Part shown: piece after piece, positions 8,930-20,050 of the stretch
Layout: the number at the start of each line of letters is the position of its first letter
Numbering within the stretch: position 1 is the first letter of the stretch
From: a virus
Reading direction: 5' to 3' (one strand)
Length of the DNA: 23,182 nt
Virus record (IMG/VR): IMGVR_UViG_3300006637_000032
Span: 1 to 23,182 of that record
Notes under the pieces: generated by a model
The model's database searches: none
The model's input: only the letters and a program-made list of their open reading frames with translations
What the model was told of the DNA's origin: nothing
Translations under genes and position numbers: made by a program

Positions 8930-10468
8930 ATGGCGCGTCGCCCGAGCCGTGGCAGGACGGCCCGACAGTACAGCCTCCCGGCCCCGACCGACGGATGGAA
9001 CGCGCGCGACAACATCGCCGCCATGCCGCCGCTGGATGCCGTCATCCTCGACAACTGGTTTCCGTCCACCGGCTACCTTCAGGTCCGCAACGGCAACACC
9101 GAGTTTGCCGATGGCGTCGGCGTTGGGTCCGTCTTTGCGCTGATGGCCTACTCGTCGCCGGCTGGTGGCAAACTGTTCGCGGCGAGCGCGACCAACATCT
9201 ACGACATCACGCCCGGCGGCACGGCATCGTCGGTGGTGGCGTCGATGACGAACGGCCGGTGGCAACACGTCAACTTCACCACGTCCGGCGGCTCGTTCCT
9301 GCTGGCTGTGAACGGCGCAGACACGCCCCGGCAGTATGATGGCACCAACTGGTCAGCCTCTACCATCAGCGCATCCGGCCTGACCACGGCGAACCTCATC
9401 AACATATGGGTCCACAAGGGCCGCATCTGGTTCGTGGAGAAGGACACGCTCGATGCGTGGTATCTGAGCGCGGGCGCCATTGCCGGCACGGCGGTCAAGT
9501 TCCCGCTCGGGGCAGTATTCCAGCTTGGCGGCGAACTCATTGCCGGCGGTTCGTGGAGCCGCGACGGCGGCGACGGCATGGACGACCTACAGGTGTTCAT
9601 CACGTCGAACGGCGAGGTTGCCGTCTACCAAGGCACCGACCCGGCTTCGGCTGACACGTTCGCGCTCGTCGGCGTGTTTCGCATCGGGCGCCCGCTTGGC
9701 TACCGTTGCATGGAGAAGTTCGGCGCCGACCTCATCGTGGTGACGGATCAGGGCTATCTGCCGTTGTCACAGGTCCTGAGGCTGGACCCGTCGCAGGCGG
9801 AAGCACAGGCGATTTCGGACAAGATCAGGGACGCGGTGAGCGAGGCCGCGCTGAGTTACGGCGGCAACTTCGGCTGGCAGGCGATCAGCTACCCGAAGAG
9901 CAATTGGGGCCTGTTCAACGTGCCGACGGTCGAGGGCGAGCAGGCCGAACAGCATGTGGTGAACGTGCTGACGGGCGCGTGGTGCCGGTTCACCGGCATG
10001 AACGCGGTCTGCTGGGAAGTGTTCAACGACGACCTGTATTTCGGCGGCCAGAACGGCTTTGTCTACAAGGCTGACAGCGGCGAGTCCGACGACGGCGATC
10101 CGGTCAACGCGGACTGCCTGCAAGCCTTCACGGACGCTGGTCTGCCGGGGACGATGAAGCGGTACACGATGCTGCGGCCTTTGTTCCGGTCGGACGGCTC
10201 GCTGGGCATCACGCTTCAGTTCAATGTGGACTACGCGATCAGCGCGCCGGGGACGAACCCGACGCCGGGGACCGCAAGCGGGCCGGTGTGGGACGTCGCG
10301 CTGTGGAACGTGTCGTACTGGGCCGGCCCTCCGGTCCCGGTGATGCTGCCGACTTCGGTTGTCGGGATCGGCACGGTGGCGTCCGCGCGCATCCGGTGTT
10401 CGGTGGATGCCCAGCAGGTCCAGTACCTGAAGACGGACTACCTGTTCGAGCCGGGAGGGTTCCTGTGA
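8930..10468 (+). CDS. Tail hub/nozzle protein (P22 gp10-like, beta-propeller)
   Basis: A 512-residue all-beta protein, close to P22 gp10 (472). The N-terminal LPAPTDGWNARDNIAAMPPLDA followed by VILDNWFP is a recurrent signature in podophage proteins of this position. Repeated WD-like blades follow (KLFAASATNIYDI, FLLAVNGADTPRQYDG, RIWFVEKDTLDAWYL, LQVFITSNGEVAVYQG, DLIVVTDQGYLPLS, DDLYFGGQNGFVYKAD), supporting a beta-propeller. Role: forms the nozzle beneath the adaptor and holds packaged DNA in. No good Shine-Dalgarno precedes ATG 8930. It ends in a TGATG overlap with the next gene. Confidence 0.68.
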   Translation: MARRPSRGRTARQYSLPAPTDGWNARDNIAAMPPLDAVILDNWFPSTGYLQVRNGNTEFADGVGVGSVFALMAYSSPAGGKLFAASATNIYDITPGGTASSVVASMTNGRWQHVNFTTSGGSFLLAVNGADTPRQYDGTNWSASTISASGLTTANLINIWVHKGRIWFVEKDTLDAWYLSAGAIAGTAVKFPLGAVFQLGGELIAGGSWSRDGGDGMDDLQVFITSNGEVAVYQGTDPASADTFALVGVFRIGRPLGYRCMEKFGADLIVVTDQGYLPLSQVLRLDPSQAEAQAISDKIRDAVSEAALSYGGNFGWQAISYPKSNWGLFNVPTVEGEQAEQHVVNVLTGAWCRFTGMNAVCWEVFNDDLYFGGQNGFVYKADSGESDDGDPVNADCLQAFTDAGLPGTMKRYTMLRPLFRSDGSLGITLQFNVDYAISAPGTNPTPGTASGPVWDVALWNVSYWAGPPVPVMLPTSVVGIGTVASARIRCSVDAQQVQYLKTDYLFEPGGFL

Positions 10469-10761
10469 TGTCGGACGCCGCACGCACTCGTCGGATGGCC
10501 GACACGCTGATGGGCAAGAAGGACGGCCCGAACCTGTCGGTCGGCCGTGGCGAAAAGTTGCCGGTGTCGCGGGGCGCCGGCCTGACCGCCAAGGGCCGCG
10601 AGAAGTACAACCGCGAGACGGGGAGCAACCTGCAAGCGCCTACGAAGGACAAGGACAACCCGAGGCACAAGTCGTTCTGCGCCCGAATGGCCGGCGTCGT
10701 GAAGAAGGCGGACGGCCCGGCTACCCGTGCGAAGGCGTCAATGCGGCGATGGGGATGTTGA
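10468..10761 (+). CDS. DUF6321 family small phage protein
   Basis: A 97-residue basic protein. The block GLTAKGREKYNRETGSNLQAP (38-58) followed by KSFCARMAGV (68-77) and a C-terminal ASMRRWGC matches the DUF6321 family found in many phages. No function is established. Coupled to the hub stop by a TGATG overlap (GTG 10465 is in frame just before). Its last 24 bases overlap, convergently, the end of the minus-strand endonuclease gene. A second, diverged copy of its C-terminal codons lies beyond that gene at 11391-11432, so the present 3' end was probably supplied with the inserted endonuclease. Confidence 0.78.
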   Translation: MSDAARTRRMADTLMGKKDGPNLSVGRGEKLPVSRGAGLTAKGREKYNRETGSNLQAPTKDKDNPRHKSFCARMAGVVKKADGPATRAKASMRRWGC

Positions 10762-11322
10762 TCTGGCGCGCTGATAGCATGGGCTGCACAGGCCGTGCGC
10801 GACATGCCGGCGACTAGACGTTCCGCATTCTATGCAATTCGGCCCGTGCTTCGACCACCGCCTTGATCGGGAGCACGTTCGATTGTTCTGGTTTTCCTTG
10901 TGTGTCACCCAGCGACAGTTCTCCGGAGAATAGCCTTTATCGGGGTCAACCCGGTCTATCTCCAGATTGTCGGCATAGCCGTTTGCGAACGACCAGAGGA
11001 AGAACGCTTCCTTATCATGCCATTCATCGCAGACGCGGATTCCTCGGTCTTCGTACCGATCTGCGAAGCGGTGCCTGTACGAACGATGGCCGCACCTCGC
11101 CATCATGCTTTGGTGGATGCGGTAGAGTCGGTGCGAGTGCATTCCGTGCTTTCGCCCGGCTCTTGCGCCGATGTCCGGGTTTTCTTTGGCGAACCGTCCG
11201 ATGTATTCGCCGCTCCGAATTCTGCCGCACGGCGCGCACGCGTTATTCAGTTGGTCGGTTCGCACCATTTCGATGCGCCCGCACGACGGGCAGATGCGTT
11301 GGGTTTTGCTGCGCTTTCTCAT
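10738..11322 (-). CDS. HNH-type homing endonuclease (free-standing)
   Basis: A 194-residue protein, the only convincing minus-strand gene. An N-terminal zinc ribbon (C11-x2-C14 ... C29-x2-C32) is followed by a nuclease-like core: RLYRIHQSMMARC (65-77), DRYEDRGIRVCDEW (88-101), LEIDRVDPDKGYSPENCRWV (120-139) and NQNNR (144-148). This is the pattern of a large phage/bacterial HNH endonuclease group. A second zinc knuckle closes the protein (C163-x2-C166 ... C179-x2-C182). Known role of such genes: cut an empty allele so that recombination copies the element in. The surrounding DNA is visibly less GC-rich than the flanking genes. It faces late transcription, so any expression needs its own promoter; no clear one was seen. 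Confidence 0.85.
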   Translation of the reverse strand: MRKRSKTQRICPSCGRIEMVRTDQLNNACAPCGRIRSGEYIGRFAKENPDIGARAGRKHGMHSHRLYRIHQSMMARCGHRSYRHRFADRYEDRGIRVCDEWHDKEAFFLWSFANGYADNLEIDRVDPDKGYSPENCRWVTHKENQNNRTCSRSRRWSKHGPNCIECGTSSRRHVAHGLCSPCYQRARSTSPSPH

Positions 11323-11431
11323 GGATGGACCATACCATGAACGAACGGTGCCGTCATAACAAATATGGTGCCCGGTCGGCTTCTTGGACTGGCGAGCGCG
11401 GGAAGGCGGCCCGGAAGCGGTGGGGCTGCTG
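10762..11431. mobile_element. Inserted homing-endonuclease segment
   Basis: The 670 bases between the DUF6321 stop and the GNAT start contain no convincing + strand gene, only the minus-strand HNH gene plus about 60 bases of 5' leader and the remnant at 11391-11432. Local base composition is lower in G+C (for example AACAAATATGG near 11360) than either side. All neighbouring genes overlap or nearly touch, so this gap is an interruption of a compact operon. The element's exact ends are not defined; the right end probably lies near 11390, where the remnant begins. Confidence 0.6.
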
Positions 11432-11432
11432 A
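11391..11432 (+). pseudogene. Stranded 3' end of the DUF6321 gene
   Basis: These bases read GERGKAARKRWGC-stop, parallel to the intact gene's TRAKASMRRWGC-stop (10723-10761). The terminal 33 bases agree at about 23 positions by hand comparison, with the last four codons and the stop differing only at synonymous third positions. The stop (11430-11432) overlaps the GNAT ATG by one base, the same TGATG arrangement used by other gene pairs here. This is best read as the original end of the DUF6321 gene, displaced when the endonuclease segment entered. It has no start of its own. Confidence 0.65.
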
Positions 11433-11953
11433 TGGCGCACCAGATCGTCCCGGTATTCCCGCGCTCCGTGGACGACGGTTACAACGAGTTCCTGTCCCGG
11501 TGGGCGGCGCAGCGGATGCCCGACTACGACGGATCGGTGCCGTTCTGGCCGTGCTACTCGATTGCCTTCGTGCGGGCGAATGATCTGCGGCAGCGTCCGC
11601 TGGCGGTGGCGGCCTACCACGGGCACAACGCCAAGTCCGGCGACATGCACCTGTCGGGGGCTTCGGAAAGCCCGATGTGGGCGACGCGCGACGCGATCCG
11701 CTGGATGCTCTGGTACCCGTTCGTCAAGCACCGTTGCCGGCGATTGACCACCATCACGGCGCGGGACAACAAGCGCGCACGGCGGTTCGACGAGAAGATT
11801 GGGTTCAAGGTTGAAGGCGTCCACCCCAAGGCATGGGACGGGCGGCGGGATTCCATAACGTATGGGATGCTGCGCGAAAAGGCTTTCGAGATGTGGAAAC
11901 TGGAGGAGTTTGCTGATGGGCAAGGGGTCGGGGTCCGCGCCGTCGGCGCCTGA
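11432..11953 (+). CDS. GNAT-family N-acetyltransferase
   Basis: A 173-residue protein with the C-terminal half of a GNAT fold: a helix region (ATRDAIRWMLWYPF, 84-97), a strand (CRRLTTITA, 102-110), then ARDNKRARRFDEKIGFKVEG (110-129) and DSITYGMLREKA (140-151). The Asn...Ala...GF-x-x-EG series is typical of acetyltransferases of the RimJ-like type. The acetyl-CoA Q/R-x-x-G-x-G/A motif is not obvious, so activity is uncertain. Chosen start is ATG 11432, which overlaps the stranded DUF6321 stop; an upstream TTG in frame is less likely. Target unknown. It overlaps the next gene by 38 bases. Confidence 0.72.
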   Translation: MAHQIVPVFPRSVDDGYNEFLSRWAAQRMPDYDGSVPFWPCYSIAFVRANDLRQRPLAVAAYHGHNAKSGDMHLSGASESPMWATRDAIRWMLWYPFVKHRCRRLTTITARDNKRARRFDEKIGFKVEGVHPKAWDGRRDSITYGMLREKAFEMWKLEEFADGQGVGVRAVGA

Positions 11954-14371: not shown

Positions 14372-17300
14372 ATGGCCGCCGCAGCGAAGACCATCGCACC
14401 CGGCGAGTTCCTGACGCCGAAGGCTGCGCCACGGGCGCTCCGGCCGGCCGAGTTCATGGCGCCGGTGCGCTCTCAGGCGGCACCTGCCCCGGCACCACCT
14501 GCCCCGTTGCCGGATGCGGCGGCTCCGGCAACGGGGCAGGTGGATGATGACGGCATGGCGTCTACCATTGTCGGGACCGCGCAGGAGTTGTGGGGTCAAG
14601 GATTCGAGAAGCCGCTGGGCGACCTGCTGGCGGGCTATCGCGCCGGCGCCTCGCGCATGTACACGACCGGCGCCAACGCGGCGATGCTGGTGAACCGTGT
14701 CAGCCAGAAGCTGGCGGAACTGTCCGGCTATGAAGGACCGGCCGACGCGGGCGACAGCTACGCCGAGCAGGTCGAGGCATGGCTGCGGCAGGCGGCAAAG
14801 GACGTGGCACCAAAGCCAACGGACGTGTCTTCCGATCTGGGGGGCATGGTCTACCAGGGCCTCGGCGCCGCGCCGGTGGCGATAACCGAGTACCTGCTGG
14901 GTGGCCGTGCGGTCGGAACCGTCCCCGGCATGGCCGGTATCGAGGCGCTGGCGCGGGCACACGAGGGGCCGCAGGAAACCGCCAAGGGTGCCGTCATCGG
15001 CGGACTGCTCGGCGGTGCGCTGAAGGGCACGGCGCCGCTGGCGAGGCTGCCGCGGGCGCTGGGAATGGGCGCCGTCGGCGGCGCGCAAGCGGCGGCAGAC
15101 GGTGGCGGTCCGAAGGAAATCGTGGCCGGCGCTGCCACCATGGCGGCGATGGGCGGCGCGTTGCCCGGCGGAAGGACATCGGCGCGGGTCGCCGCACAGG
15201 ACTTCCTGAAATCGGTCAGCCCCGAGCCACGGCAGACGCGCCAGGAACCCTACTTCGCCGAGCCGCCGGCGGTGCTGCCGCCGCGTGTCGTGGAACCGGA
15301 CAGGCCCCCGGCACCGCCTGCGGATACCGCACCTGCCGCTTCCGCGCCCGCAGGAAGCCCGCAGACGGCTTCGCCGGCTTCCCCGTTGGTCGATAGCGGC
15401 AAACCGCCCGAGGCGCCCCAGCGGGCACCTGTGAGTCAGGACGGGGCATCCGAGGTGGTGACGCCTCGCGGCCGGCGGGTCGGCGTTGCCTACGAACTGG
15501 TGGATGCCGACCGGCTGGTGACGAGCCACGATCTGGACTTCCGACCCACGCCGGGCTTCCCGACGGCATTGCAGCCGCGTGAGCGGACGCGGGCTGCCAG
15601 CCAGGAACAGGTCAACCGCATCGCGTCGAACCTGACGCCGGAACTGCTGGGCCGCTCGCCGTCCGCTTCCGAGGGTGCTCCCATCATCGGCCCGGATGGC
15701 GTCGTCGAGTCCGGCAACGGCCGCGTGCTGGCGCTGCGCAAGGTGTACCGGGACAGCCCGGAGACGGCGGCCCGATATCGGGACTGGCTGGCGTCGCAGG
15801 GCTACGACACGGCCGGCCTGAAGGCGCCCGTGCTGGTGCGCCGTCGCACGTCCGAACTGACGCCGCAGGACCGGGAGGCGTTCGTCCGGGAGGCGAACGA
15901 GCGGACCACGCTGGACATGGGCGCGTCGGAACTGGCGGCCAGCGATGCCCGCTCGATGCCCGACTGGCTTATCGACCTGTACCGGGGCGGCGACATCGCC
16001 AATGCCGGCAACAGGGAGTTCGTGCGCCGGTTCCTCGACAGCCTGCCGGAGAACGACCGCGCCCGGCTGGTCGGCGAGCGGGGCGAACTGAGCCAGGACG
16101 GCGTCCGCCGGCTGGAGAACGCGCTGTTCCATCGCGCCTACGAGGACGGCGGCTTGCTGGCGACGCTGCGGGAGAGCCGGGACAACAACATCGCGGCGAT
16201 CGGCAACGCCCTCACCGACGTGGCGGCTGATTGGGCGCGGATGCGGCAGCAGGCCCGGACCGGCAGCATGCCGGTGGACCTCGACCCTACACGCCATCTG
16301 CTCTATGCGGTGCGGCTGGTCCGGAAGGCGCGTTCGGAGAACCAGAAGGTCGGCGACCTCGCGCGCCAGGACGAGTTGTTCGGCTCGGCGCTGTCTCCGG
16401 AGGCGACGGGCTTCCTGAAGCTGATGTTCGCCGACGACGCGTTCCGCAAGCCGGTTTCAAGGCAGCGGATCGCCGAGGCGCTGCGCTTCTATGCGGATCA
16501 GGCCGGCCGGGTGAAGGCAGGGCCTTCCCTGCTCGGCGACGCGCCGGCGACCTCGGTCCGAGACATCCTCGACCTGACGGCCCAGCGCCAGAAGGGTGGC
16601 CTGCTGCCGCCGATGGAAGATGCCGCCGACATGCGGGCGGCGCGCTCGCCCGGCACGACGGCGCCGAAGACGATGAGCGTCGACCAGATGAATGCCGACA
16701 TGCGGGCGGCGGGACCGGGGAACAACTACGTCGGCATGCGGCGGGAGACGCCGGCGACAGGCTCGCGCGACATCGACACGCCGATCCGTCGCGAGGACAT
16801 CCTGAAGCCGCTCGCCGATGCGCTGGGGCTGCCGTTCTACCAGGGCCGCATCAACAAGCGGTCCAAGATGCTCGGGTTCTTCCGCATCCGTGCCGAGGAA
16901 ATCCGGCTGAAGAACGCGAACGATCTGGAAGTGGCGATCCACGAGGCCGCGCACCTGTTGGACAAGCGTTTCCCGGAAATCAAGAAGCAGTGGAACCCGG
17001 CGACCAAGGCGAACGAGCCGATCCGCAAGGAACTGGCAGGCGTCAGCTACGACAGCACCAAGCTGTATGAGGGCTTCGCCGAGTTCGTCCGCCTGTGGGC
17101 GACGCAGCCGGAGCAGGCCATCGCGCGGGCGCCGAAGTTCTCCGACTGGTGGGCGAACTTCATCCAGACCAACCCGTACCGGGAACCGCTTTTGCGCTTC
17201 CGTGACGGGGCGAACGCATGGTTCGAGCAGGATGCGCTGTTGCGCGCCCGGTCCAAGATCGGCCTGACGCAGACCATCGACCAGATCGATTCCAGCCTGT

Positions 17301-20050
17301 GGTCCCGGTTCCGCCAGTCCATCCTCGACGACCTGCACGGCATCGAGCGAATGGAGCGGGAACTGACCGGCGGCATCGCTCCCGTCGGCGCCTACGAAAC
17401 GGCACGGCTCACCCGCGCCAAGGCATCCTTCATCGAGGGTGCTCTGACCATCGGCGCGCCGGTGATCCGCCCGGACGGCTCTCACGGCTTCGAGGGCAAG
17501 GGACTGAAGCAGATCCTCGAACCCGTCGCCGACGACCTCGACCGCTTCTGGCTGTACGCCGTCGGCCGGTCCGCGAGGGAACTGCTGTCGCAGGGCCGGG
17601 AACGGCTGTTCACCAAGGCCGAGATCGACGCCATGACCGGCCTGGAGACGCCGGCCTTCAAGGAGGCGTTCGAGGGGTACCAGCGCTGGAACCGGGCCGT
17701 CCTCGACTTCGCCGAGGCGAAGGGGATCATCGACCCCGAGGTGCGGACGCGGTGGAAGCGCACGCAATACCTGCCGTTCTACCGTGTCGGCGAGGCCGGC
17801 GCGTCGACCGGATCGAAGGGCGCGCAGGGCGATTGGCGAGGCATCAAGGAACTGCACGGCGGCACCGCCAACCTCGGCAGTCCGGGCGAGAACGTGATCC
17901 GCAACGCGGCGATGCTGCTCGACGTGGCGCTGACCAACGAGGCCCGACTGAAGGTCGCGCGGCTGGCGAAGGGTGAAGGCGGCGCCCGGTTCATGGCGGA
18001 GATTCCGAAGGAGGATCGCCGCGTCAGGGTGCTGACCGACAGCGTGAAGCAGGCTGCCGAAATCGCCTTCGGCCGGGCGCAGGCGAAGGATGCGGAGGCG
18101 GCCCAGCGTCTCGGCAACGAGGGGCCGAACGACATTGCGGCGCGACAGAATGCGGAAGCAGAACTGTTCGGCGACGCACTGGATGAGGTGTTCAGCCGGC
18201 TGCCGGCGTTCCTTCAGGCCATCCAGCCCAATCAGGCGCCGGGCGGACGCAACGTCGTCGCCGTGCTCGACGGTGGCCGGCCACGCTACTTCGAGGTCGC
18301 CGACCCGCTGATGTTCCGCGCGCTCACATCACTGGACCGGCCGATGGCGCATGCCGTGGTCCGCTGGCTCGCGGTGCCGCGCCGGCTCGGACAGGCGGGC
18401 ATCACCCTGACGGCCGACTTCATGGCAGCGAACCTAGCGCGCGATACCGTGCTGGCGTCGATCCTGTCGCGCAACGGCTTCCGGCCGTTCGTCGACTCCG
18501 GGCGCGGCTTCACGTCCCGGCTGCTCACAGATCCCAGCTACAAGGAGTTCATCGCCAACGGCGGCGGGTTCTCGTCGCACCTGATGGACGAGCGGGCGTT
18601 CCGGCTGAACCTGGAGCGCTACTACGGCCGCAAGGGCATCGACTACCGCACCGTTCTCGATACCCCGGTGAAGCTGCTGGCGGGCGTCGAACGGGTTGCC
18701 GATGCCTTCGAGATGTCGACCCGGCTGGGGGAGTACCGGCGAGCCGTGGAGCGAGGCCAGAACCCGCGCCATGCAGCCTACGAGGCCCGCGAGATCAGCA
18801 CCGACTTCGCCATGCGCGGCGACAGCCAGGTCATGGGCTTCATGTACGACACGGTGCTGTTCCTGAAGGCCGCCGTGAACGGTCTGGACCGGCTCTATCG
18901 GGGCGTGACGCAGGATTCCAACCGCGCGACCGTCGCTGCCAAGGCCGGCCTTCTGGCGCTGATGTCGATGGGGCTCTACGGCATCAACCGCGGCAATCCA
19001 CTGTACGAGCAGCTTGAGGATTGGGACCGCGACACGCACTGGCACCTGTTTGCACCGACGGCGCGGTATTTCGAGTTCGTGGCGAGGAACGGCCGGGAGC
19101 CTGCGAATGGCGAGGAAGCGGAAGGGATGTTCGTCCATCTCCGCTACCCGAAGCTGTGGGAGATCGGCGCCGTCGCTTCCATCGCCGAGCGCACGCTACA
19201 GGGCATCCTCGACGGCGCGCCGGCAGAGCAGGTGCCGAAGATCATCGGCACCGTGGGCCGCACGCTGGGCTACGAGTACGTCCCGCAGGCGGTGGCGCCA
19301 CTGTACGAAATCGCCATCAACCGCAACCGCTTCCTCGACCGGCCCATCGAGACGCAGAGCATGCAGCAGATCGAGCCGTGGGCACGGTCCTCACCCTACG
19401 GATCGACAACGCTCCGGCAGGCCGGCGAGGCCGTCAGGAACGTGCCGGGGCTGAACCAGATCAGTCCGGCACAGGTCGAATCCCTCCTGCGGGGCTACTT
19501 CGGCACCTGGGCGATGTATGGCCTGAGCCTTGCGGATGCCGTGACGTCCGACGCCAAGCCCGACCTCCGGCTTGACCAGTATCCCGTGCTGCGCCGGTTC
19601 TACAGTGCCGACCCGGCGAGGACGACGAGGTTCACGACCGAACTGTACGACATGCTGGCCGAGGCGACGCAGGCGCGGCGCACCATCACCTACCTTGACC
19701 GCACATTCCGCCCGGAGATGGCGACGGAACGGGAAGGTCGGAAGGCCAACCTTGCCTATGGCCAACTCGCCCGAGCCGAGCAGGAGATGCAGGCGATGGC
19801 GGCCGAAATCCGGCAGATATACCAGGCGCGCACGCTGGCCGAGGTTCAGGCCCTCGCACGGCAGCGTCGCATCAGCAGGGGCGCAATCAGTAACACCGGC
19901 AACCTCTCGCGAGCCGGCAACTGGAACGATATCGGGCGCCTGAAGCGAGCGCTCATCGACGACATCGTTAGGGAGCGTAACCGGTATGCCCGCGACGTGG
20001 TGGAAGACGTCCGGCCACCGCCAACGCGAGCAGCCACACCGCTGCGATAA
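14372..20050 (+). CDS. Giant polyvalent protein: DdrB/ParB-like, zincin-like and LPD38-like domains
   Basis: An 1892-residue protein. In order: a Pro/Ala-rich N-terminus (1-60); a glycine/alanine-rich, partly hydrophobic region (about 165-275); a Pro-rich linker (280-360); a DdrB/ParB-like domain with AYELVDADRLVTSHDLDFRP (from about 372), QPRERTRAASQEQ and ESGNGRVLALRKVY (about 446-459); a helical region; a zincin-like domain with H857-E-A-A-H861 and E900GFAE904 about 40 residues on, giving plausible zinc ligands; conserved helical regions (about 968-1150); and an LPD38-like part (ITLTADFMAANLARD from about 1344, to about 1500). This architecture matches the 'polyvalent proteins' described in phages and conjugative elements. 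Known family idea: ejected with the DNA to act early in infection. Activities here are predicted from motifs only. Confidence 0.82.
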   Translation: MAAAAKTIAPGEFLTPKAAPRALRPAEFMAPVRSQAAPAPAPPAPLPDAAAPATGQVDDDGMASTIVGTAQELWGQGFEKPLGDLLAGYRAGASRMYTTGANAAMLVNRVSQKLAELSGYEGPADAGDSYAEQVEAWLRQAAKDVAPKPTDVSSDLGGMVYQGLGAAPVAITEYLLGGRAVGTVPGMAGIEALARAHEGPQETAKGAVIGGLLGGALKGTAPLARLPRALGMGAVGGAQAAADGGGPKEIVAGAATMAAMGGALPGGRTSARVAAQDFLKSVSPEPRQTRQEPYFAEPPAVLPPRVVEPDRPPAPPADTAPAASAPAGSPQTASPASPLVDSGKPPEAPQRAPVSQDGASEVVTPRGRRVGVAYELVDADRLVTSHDLDFRPTPGFPTALQPRERTRAASQEQVNRIASNLTPELLGRSPSASEGAPIIGPDGVVESGNGRVLALRKVYRDSPETAARYRDWLASQGYDTAGLKAPVLVRRRTSELTPQDREAFVREANERTTLDMGASELAASDARSMPDWLIDLYRGGDIANAGNREFVRRFLDSLPENDRARLVGERGELSQDGVRRLENALFHRAYEDGGLLATLRESRDNNIAAIGNALTDVAADWARMRQQARTGSMPVDLDPTRHLLYAVRLVRKARSENQKVGDLARQDELFGSALSPEATGFLKLMFADDAFRKPVSRQRIAEALRFYADQAGRVKAGPSLLGDAPATSVRDILDLTAQRQKGGLLPPMEDAADMRAARSPGTTAPKTMSVDQMNADMRAAGPGNNYVGMRRETPATGSRDIDTPIRREDILKPLADALGLPFYQGRINKRSKMLGFFRIRAEEIRLKNANDLEVAIHEAAHLLDKRFPEIKKQWNPATKANEPIRKELAGVSYDSTKLYEGFAEFVRLWATQPEQAIARAPKFSDWWANFIQTNPYREPLLRFRDGANAWFEQDALLRARSKIGLTQTIDQIDSSLWSRFRQSILDDLHGIERMERELTGGIAPVGAYETARLTRAKASFIEGALTIGAPVIRPDGSHGFEGKGLKQILEPVADDLDRFWLYAVGRSARELLSQGRERLFTKAEIDAMTGLETPAFKEAFEGYQRWNRAVLDFAEAKGIIDPEVRTRWKRTQYLPFYRVGEAGASTGSKGAQGDWRGIKELHGGTANLGSPGENVIRNAAMLLDVALTNEARLKVARLAKGEGGARFMAEIPKEDRRVRVLTDSVKQAAEIAFGRAQAKDAEAAQRLGNEGPNDIAARQNAEAELFGDALDEVFSRLPAFLQAIQPNQAPGGRNVVAVLDGGRPRYFEVADPLMFRALTSLDRPMAHAVVRWLAVPRRLGQAGITLTADFMAANLARDTVLASILSRNGFRPFVDSGRGFTSRLLTDPSYKEFIANGGGFSSHLMDERAFRLNLERYYGRKGIDYRTVLDTPVKLLAGVERVADAFEMSTRLGEYRRAVERGQNPRHAAYEAREISTDFAMRGDSQVMGFMYDTVLFLKAAVNGLDRLYRGVTQDSNRATVAAKAGLLALMSMGLYGINRGNPLYEQLEDWDRDTHWHLFAPTARYFEFVARNGREPANGEEAEGMFVHLRYPKLWEIGAVASIAERTLQGILDGAPAEQVPKIIGTVGRTLGYEYVPQAVAPLYEIAINRNRFLDRPIETQSMQQIEPWARSSPYGSTTLRQAGEAVRNVPGLNQISPAQVESLLRGYFGTWAMYGLSLADAVTSDAKPDLRLDQYPVLRRFYSADPARTTRFTTELYDMLAEATQARRTITYLDRTFRPEMATEREGRKANLAYGQLARAEQEMQAMAAEIRQIYQARTLAEVQALARQRRISRGAISNTGNLSRAGNWNDIGRLKRALIDDIVRERNRYARDVVEDVRPPPTRAATPLR

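Follow-up and report, generated by a model that had tools for sequence, protein, structure and literature searches.

A putative homing unit at the 3' end of the phage DUF6321 gene: an HNH endonuclease gene with a replacement gene end

The window, a whole stretch of 23182 bases from a virus record, contains a DUF6321 gene with a complete 3' end, followed by an antisense HNH endonuclease gene and then by the stranded end of a reading frame resembling a second DUF6321 end. This locus raises the question of how an endonuclease gene came to lie between two ends of one kind of gene, and which of the two ends was the original. According to the original prediction, the endonuclease had brought its own 3' end and the downstream tail was the original one. 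This is supported by the tail classes found in the window, by loci sharing a PTKD-type 5' part and by the comparison of two further loci, L063 and L037.

Two tail classes at the window locus

The gene order was upstream gene, DUF6321, antisense HNH, stranded frame end and GNAT. The upstream gene P0005 (8930-10468, plus strand; 512 aa), whose product is probably structural, shares one base of its stop with the DUF6321 ATG. The DUF6321 gene (10468-10761, plus strand) ends with TRAKASMRRWGC-stop, the stop codon being at 10759-10761, and it met the requirement for membership of PF19846 (65.6 bits, curated cut-off 28.5). The HNH endonuclease gene P0002 (10738-11322, minus strand; 194 aa) overlaps the final 24 bp of the new tail with its 3' end, on the opposite strand. 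Profile matches to PHROG 374 (8e-33) and PHROG 3377 (8e-30) placed P0002 among phage-type HNH proteins, and nothing above the cut-off was found for it in Pfam or NCBIfam. Its structure model was poor (pLDDT 68), the best PDB fold match, PacI, was not significant (E 0.71), and a PDB sequence search with P0001 and P0002 gave no matches. The orphan frame ends with GERGKAARKRWGC-stop (stop at 11430-11432), and its TGA is overlapped by one base by the ATG (11432-11434) of the GNAT-type acetyltransferase gene P0003 (11432-11953, plus strand); the same one-base overlap of stop and start is present at the 10466-10470 junction. P0003 matched PHROG 4470 (2e-23), with a Pfam GNAT match under the cut-off, and matches at about 30-40% identity were seen in Burkholderia phage BcepIL02 (Lessievirus) and others. 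The predicted layout, namely an intact DUF6321 ending at 10761, a minus-strand HNH gene overlapping this end, and an orphan end joined to GNAT as other gene pairs are joined here, was thus exact in its coordinates.

The region between the tails (10762-11369) has the lowest GC among all 608-bp sliding windows of the record (step 20), 57.6% against a mean of 66.8% (s.d. 2.8). The same arrangement was found in the IMG/VR contigs L083 and L084, with 100% identity over 8519 and 4657 aligned bases, so that a one-off assembly error is unlikely; these contigs and the window may come from the same phage population. DNA identical to that of the window occurs in a 43.7-kb and a 9.7-kb contig. Elsewhere in the record, a 49-bp near-perfect palindrome (14495-14543) lies within a frame of 1892 aa (14372-20050).

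The loci of DUF6321 relatives used for comparison were those of the best 80 of 595 and the best 80 of 597 relatives found, and are therefore not a random sample. These relatives have an SFCAR-like motif in common, which is followed mostly by one of two endings, class A (for example MxGVVKxAKGPAERAKASLKRWKC) or class B (for example SxSWTGERGKAARKRWGC). By name, most of the 525 phage records with DUF6321 belong to Synechococcus (371), Cyanophage (62) and Prochlorococcus (42).

Over their final 33 bases, the attached and the stranded tail are identical at 23 positions, as had been counted originally. Alone this match is weak, because the next best plus-strand 33-mer of the window reaches 21/33; judged from profiles, the protein comparison raises the homology of the tails above chance. 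An HMM of class-B tails (59 tails of relatives) scored 40.7 bits (E 5e-12) at 11370-11429, the six-frame runner-up reaching 10.1 bits, and an HMM of class-A tails (27 tails) scored 60.6 bits at 10672-10758, with a runner-up of 8.0 bits. The loci L042 and L049 were excluded from the tail HMM, as well as from the codon tally and the endonuclease recheck given below. Based on the class-B HMM, the stranded 3' end was delimited as 11370-11432 (plus strand), ARSASWTGERGKAARKRWGC-stop, where the homology spans 20 codons. The view of the tails as homologous ends held, over a longer stretch than had been claimed; the two belong to different classes and are not slightly diverged copies.

In order of similarity, the top 25 endonuclease-free relatives of the 5' part up to SFCAR (10468-10686, plus strand; 57 residues compared) were all class B, the best being L008 with 52/57 residues. 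The attached tail had only class-A sequences among its top 25 matches (best L055, 21/24 residues), and the stranded tail only class-B sequences (best 17/18 residues; at the DNA level, 51/63 bases with L097). When the window gene was compared with L008, its nearest endonuclease-free relative and a class-B gene, the 5' part was 93% and its own tail 29% identical. On these comparisons the window DUF6321 gene is inferred to be a chimera of a class-B 5' part and a class-A tail. Since the 5' part and the stranded tail are class B and the attached tail is class A, the resident gene was class B, and it is concluded from the sequence alone that the endonuclease and the class-A tail arrived in the window together. 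The replacement 3' end, MAGVVKKADGPATRAKASMRRWGC-stop (10687-10761, plus strand), is accordingly described as brought by the element by inference only, and the same applies to the extent of the inserted unit (10681-11369, no strand), comprising the new tail, the HNH gene and the region upstream of the HNH gene. The left edge of this unit is uncertain, as homology of the incoming tail already begins at the FCAR codons.

Tail class and endonuclease among relatives

A PTKD-type 5' part was recognised in 37 loci, sorted by hand among the best 80 of 595 and of 597. No full-strength HNH of the antisense family or of the second, NUMOD4-HNH family described below lies downstream in 31 of the 37 (30 contigs), and all of these have class-B tails; L057 and L102 among them have less than 500 bp of downstream sequence, and L097 has a weak HNH match. 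Class-A tails were restricted to the window phage (5 copies) and L003, both with an antisense HNH; the two endonucleases are 55% identical and occupy the same position. The antisense HNH is not always paired with class A, since in L264 and L265 the PTKD 5' part and the antisense HNH occur together with a class-B tail.

In a nearest-neighbour comparison, each gene was paired with the relative closest to it over the final 44 residues of the 5' part; duplicates, and rows with fewer than 40 residues of 5' part, were omitted. Endonuclease-free DUF6321 sequences (n = 125, deduplicated) were 95% identical to their nearest relative in the 5' part and 87% in the tail. The corresponding values for NUMOD4-HNH-bearing sequences (n = 52) against their nearest endonuclease-free relative were 90% and 47%, and those for L003 were 95% and 36%. 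A Mann-Whitney p value of 2.7e-22 was obtained on the 51 and 125 sequences with a 5' identity of at least 75%. This value is only indicative because the rows share ancestry, and for the same reason the counts refer to sequences, not events. The Arg codon of the FCAR motif was AGA or AGG in 59/59 deduplicated element-bearing sequences (L261 omitted) compared with 50/135 others, so that the transferred stretch seems to extend back into this motif. The endonuclease-free label was rechecked by HMM in 155 loci, 12 of them with less than 500 bp of downstream sequence, and no full-strength member of either HNH family was found. L121, L031, L111 and L097, which were counted as endonuclease-free, have weak HNH matches in the 1.5 kb that follow DUF6321; perhaps these are further families at the same spot.

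The second family is encoded on the plus strand. In L063, a NUMOD4-HNH gene (Pfam NUMOD4 and HNH_3, both above cut-off) is preceded by the DUF6321 tail MAPIAKASPKGSRARASMRRWKCR, and the stranded tail SKNSERAKASMRRWKCR lies beyond it. Empty relatives of this locus were available (L037, L021 and L017). Compared with the empty L037, the left flank agreed at 186/192 and the right flank at 1132/1159 bases; judged by the BLAST ends, 485 bp were inserted and 17 bp of the host are missing. A new tail is attached in L063, and the old tail stranded there is still in use in L037. The position of the break, at the FCAR codons, is that seen in the window. As inferred from these alignments, a second and unrelated HNH family (NUMOD4) behaves in this way too, and at the same codons.

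With the L077 endonuclease as query, 81 relatives were found, of which 80 loci were kept; the addition of L077 gave 81 rows from 80 contigs (L029 and L092 share a contig, as do L077 and L186). In all 81 rows a DUF6321 end lies directly upstream and overlaps the endonuclease frame, read from the conserved start. A special tail, MxP(I/V)A...GSRA(R/K)A, was present in 80/81 rows, and it occurred in 52/52 deduplicated element-bearing sequences versus 0/125 deduplicated endonuclease-free ones. In L235-L237 this element tail ends in RWKCPNW, as in the endonuclease-free relative L079, which suggests a second conversion. No match to P0007 (NUMOD4-HNH) was found at 1e-20 in 50,697 phage records.

It had been expected that a relative without the endonuclease would show a C-terminus like the downstream tail. 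This was fulfilled in the sister case, L063 against L037, L021 and L017. For the window itself, an empty class-B DUF6321-GNAT junction from a close relative was not found among relatives of the upstream gene, by DNA pattern or in a genome scan, and the window's own event therefore rests on the class comparison. With GNAT as query, the window phage itself (L083, L084) was all that was recovered. The upstream gene has relatives at 14 loci, two of which are the window phage; the other 12 had no significant DUF6321 match (best E 0.53), and GNAT is present in 7 of them. The DNA pattern of a class-B tail running straight into TGATGG was met in 5 contigs, namely 2 of the window phage and 3 with other next genes. 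The genome scan gave 3 DUF6321 loci (65, 49 and 44% identity), in which no second tail was noted. In the contig L276 (664-1965), from a Betaproteobacteria MAG, the DUF6321 frame continues into a long ORF and the terminal Cys is lost.

Displaced ends and the antisense HNH family

Clear-scoring stranded tails were found in the window phage, L063 and L260. In L260, GVVRNAKGPAERAKASLRNWKC-stop follows directly after the endonuclease stop and scored 26.6 bits, from GVVRNAKG to the stop. In L273, a stranded VIKGKRGKAARRRWGCR-stop lies past the start of the antisense HNH, and the contig breaks off within the HNH gene. No stranded tail was seen in L003. The original prediction would have been refuted by two tails in phages without the endonuclease; a regex scan of 165 loci gave none, a second tail being present only in the 5 window-phage copies and L063.

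In 13 NUMOD4 rows, a short in-frame remnant like KAASLKRWKC (8-12 bits each) is fused to the C-terminus of the endonuclease. Less securely, and from residue similarity only, these C-termini may be captured old DUF6321 ends. Endonucleases with DUF6321-like last residues (for example AASLKRWKC-stop) were noted in L196, L212-214, L216, L218, L219, L221, L227-229, L233 and L238. No stranded-tail HMM match was obtained in 64/81 NUMOD4 rows (3 of the 81 have less than 150 bp there), and 2/81 gave matches at noise level only; none of the matches in the scan of the 81 rows was on the minus strand. Old ends thus seem usually to be lost.

With an alignment of P0008 and P0002 as query, 12 loci of the antisense family were found. 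L264, L265, L266, L268, L269 and L270 have the endonuclease at a DUF6321 end, and L273 has the stranded end; L267 is the L003 contig and, by contig name, L271 and L272 are the window phage. No significant DUF6321 match was found in L274 and L275. P0008 matched 13 phage records at 1e-20, with at most 69% of the query covered. Two sub-kinds could be distinguished. The window and L003 have a C-terminal zinc-ribbon-like stretch (a motif recognised by eye) and class-A tails; L264, L268 and L270 have short HNH C-termini and class-B tails. The latter tails are weakly discordant with their neighbours (79-84% tail identity), so that no tail swap is demonstrated there. The HNH C-terminus overlaps the host tail by 24 bp in the window, 41 bp in the L003 contig, 33 bp in L264, 75 bp in L268 and 60 bp in L270; because of this overlap, tail and HNH are expected to move as one piece. 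L266 has no DUF6321 tail after SFCSRSK. Just upstream of the antisense HNH start, GGATGTCAA is shared by L003, L268, L270 and L273, and L264 has GGTTGTCAA; the reverse complement TTGACATCC resembles a -35 box for the HNH gene and is absent from the window.

Proposed homing and comparison with known systems

We consider it highly probable that the locus holds a free-standing homing element whose mobile unit is the HNH endonuclease gene together with a replacement 3' end; cleavage, resistance and mobility are inferred. The endonuclease would cleave a DUF6321 gene that lacks the element, at the highly conserved FCAR codons or close to them. With an element-bearing genome as template, repair would then place the new tail in frame behind the resident 5' part and the endonuclease gene behind this tail, a process inferred from a product that is observed. 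The resident gene would keep a complete end of a different class, which should no longer match the cut site. The old 3' end, seen downstream as a stranded fragment that in the window still overlaps the GNAT start, would have been displaced by this event. As the frames of endonuclease and new tail were found to overlap, the two may tend to travel together. Later the stranded tail would disappear or, as it appears for the NUMOD4 family, become the C-terminus of the endonuclease.

Ordinary intronless homing as in T4, with an intergenic endonuclease, co-conversion that altered the 3' end of the neighbouring gene and an incidental stranded tail, appears unlikely without being negligible. Co-conversion with replacement of flanking markers is established for T4 homing endonucleases, according to the part of the source available (PMC2988022), but here the insertion lies inside a coding region, the tail shares bases with the endonuclease frame and is a component of the inserted unit, and several loci still have an old end downstream. 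Of a conversion, the sequences show only the result. The boundary between this explanation and the replacement-end element is a matter of degree.

It is very improbable that the HNH gene was inserted just past the stop of an old class-A gene and that the stranded tail is a remnant of another DUF6321 gene, separate or in tandem, which lost its 5' part by deletion. A duplication of the old gene is conceivable, and DUF6321 is gained or lost, since it is absent from the 12 loci with upstream-gene relatives; however, the 5' part of the attached gene is class B like the stranded tail and not class A, no second tail was found by regex in 159 other loci, and both flanks of L063 match one single empty gene.

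In group I introns, U precedes the insert and G ends it, and the window insert fits these rules. An intron (group I or other) with an antisense HNH, in which the class-A tail would come from unspliced RNA and splicing would restore a class-B protein, was considered seriously because joining the sequence after TTCT (10678) to GTGCCCGG (11368) would read SFCARSASWTGERG in frame, yet it is hardly tenable: no Rfam intron family was found at E up to 10 in 10400-11700, so that group I membership was not met, no Rfam family reached gathering level in the window, L003, L063, L260, L273 or L077, L063 lost 17 host bases, and L003, L264, L268 and L270 have no tail-like end downstream of the HNH as splice partner.

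Returning to the element with a replacement end, we think it reasonably probable, with less assurance than for the element itself, that the DUF6321 3' end forms a hot spot at which the combination of an endonuclease with a host 3' end evolved independently in at least two HNH families of phages that are unrelated to each other, that the tail brought along serves the element as its own resistance allele, that repeated homing reshuffles the C-termini, and that stranded ends are sometimes captured by the endonuclease. Carrying a replacement end would be a way, besides introns and inteins, for a homing gene to occupy a coding region and leave it unbroken. The frequency of the NUMOD4 family (80 contigs) allows filled and empty sites to be compared, and the idea that the carried tail gives immunity through synonymous or class differences is testable. 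Annotators may overlook odd overlaps, switched tails and stranded gene ends, for which the model would also offer an explanation.

No phage precedent was found in the open-access literature, as far as titles and the openings of abstracts allow, and precedent elsewhere is possible; no mention of DUF6321 was found in the open-access literature searched. The T4 seg and mob endonucleases are likewise free-standing, several cut neighbouring genes with co-conversion of flanks, and four T4 free-standing endonucleases overlap the upstream ORF by 11-24 bp (PMC2988022). They differ in that no carried spare 3' end or stranded old end is described in the accessible part of that source, in that their cut sites and endonuclease genes are separated by hundreds to thousands of bp, and in that insertions into genes split them, as mobE does in Aeh1 nrdA (PMC2988022).

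Closer likeness is found in fungi. Mobile ORFs of fungal mitochondria with C-terminal duplication, in Allomyces atp6 and Glomus atp6, atp9, cox2 and nad3, combine a foreign C-terminus in phase with the resident gene, an endonuclease ORF and the native C-terminus downstream, as reported in the available part of the source (PMC3630166). There the genes are mitochondrial and the ORF is of the LAGLIDADG type for atp6 (PMC3630166), whereas the phage enzymes are HNH types, one of them antisense to the host gene. In the WHO elements of Torulaspora and Lachancea yeasts, an endonuclease lies beside the host gene and each integration replaces the host 3' end, according to the portion available (PMC7282813). 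The chimeric host gene, the old 3' end left downstream and a unit of endonuclease plus 3' end are common to both systems (PMC7282813), and two criteria of the WHO kind were met in the window, a 3'-chimeric host gene beside the endonuclease and a displaced 3' end downstream. WHO endonucleases are related to HO and inteins and fused to zinc fingers, they target FBA1 in yeast nuclear genomes, and their cleavage has been shown (PMC7282813); in the phage case, unlike these, the enzymes belong to two HNH families without relation to each other, the target is a phage gene whose function is unknown, and the frames overlap, with no biochemistry as yet. Membership of the WHO family proper was not met, the enzyme being HNH by profile and the target DUF6321. 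In view of enzyme type and target, this is therefore not a WHO element, but it works like one. If true, WHO-like homing would, within the reach of our searches, be reported here for the first time from bacteria or phages, and the replacement-end strategy known from yeast nuclei and fungal mitochondria would here be used in phages by two unrelated enzyme families.
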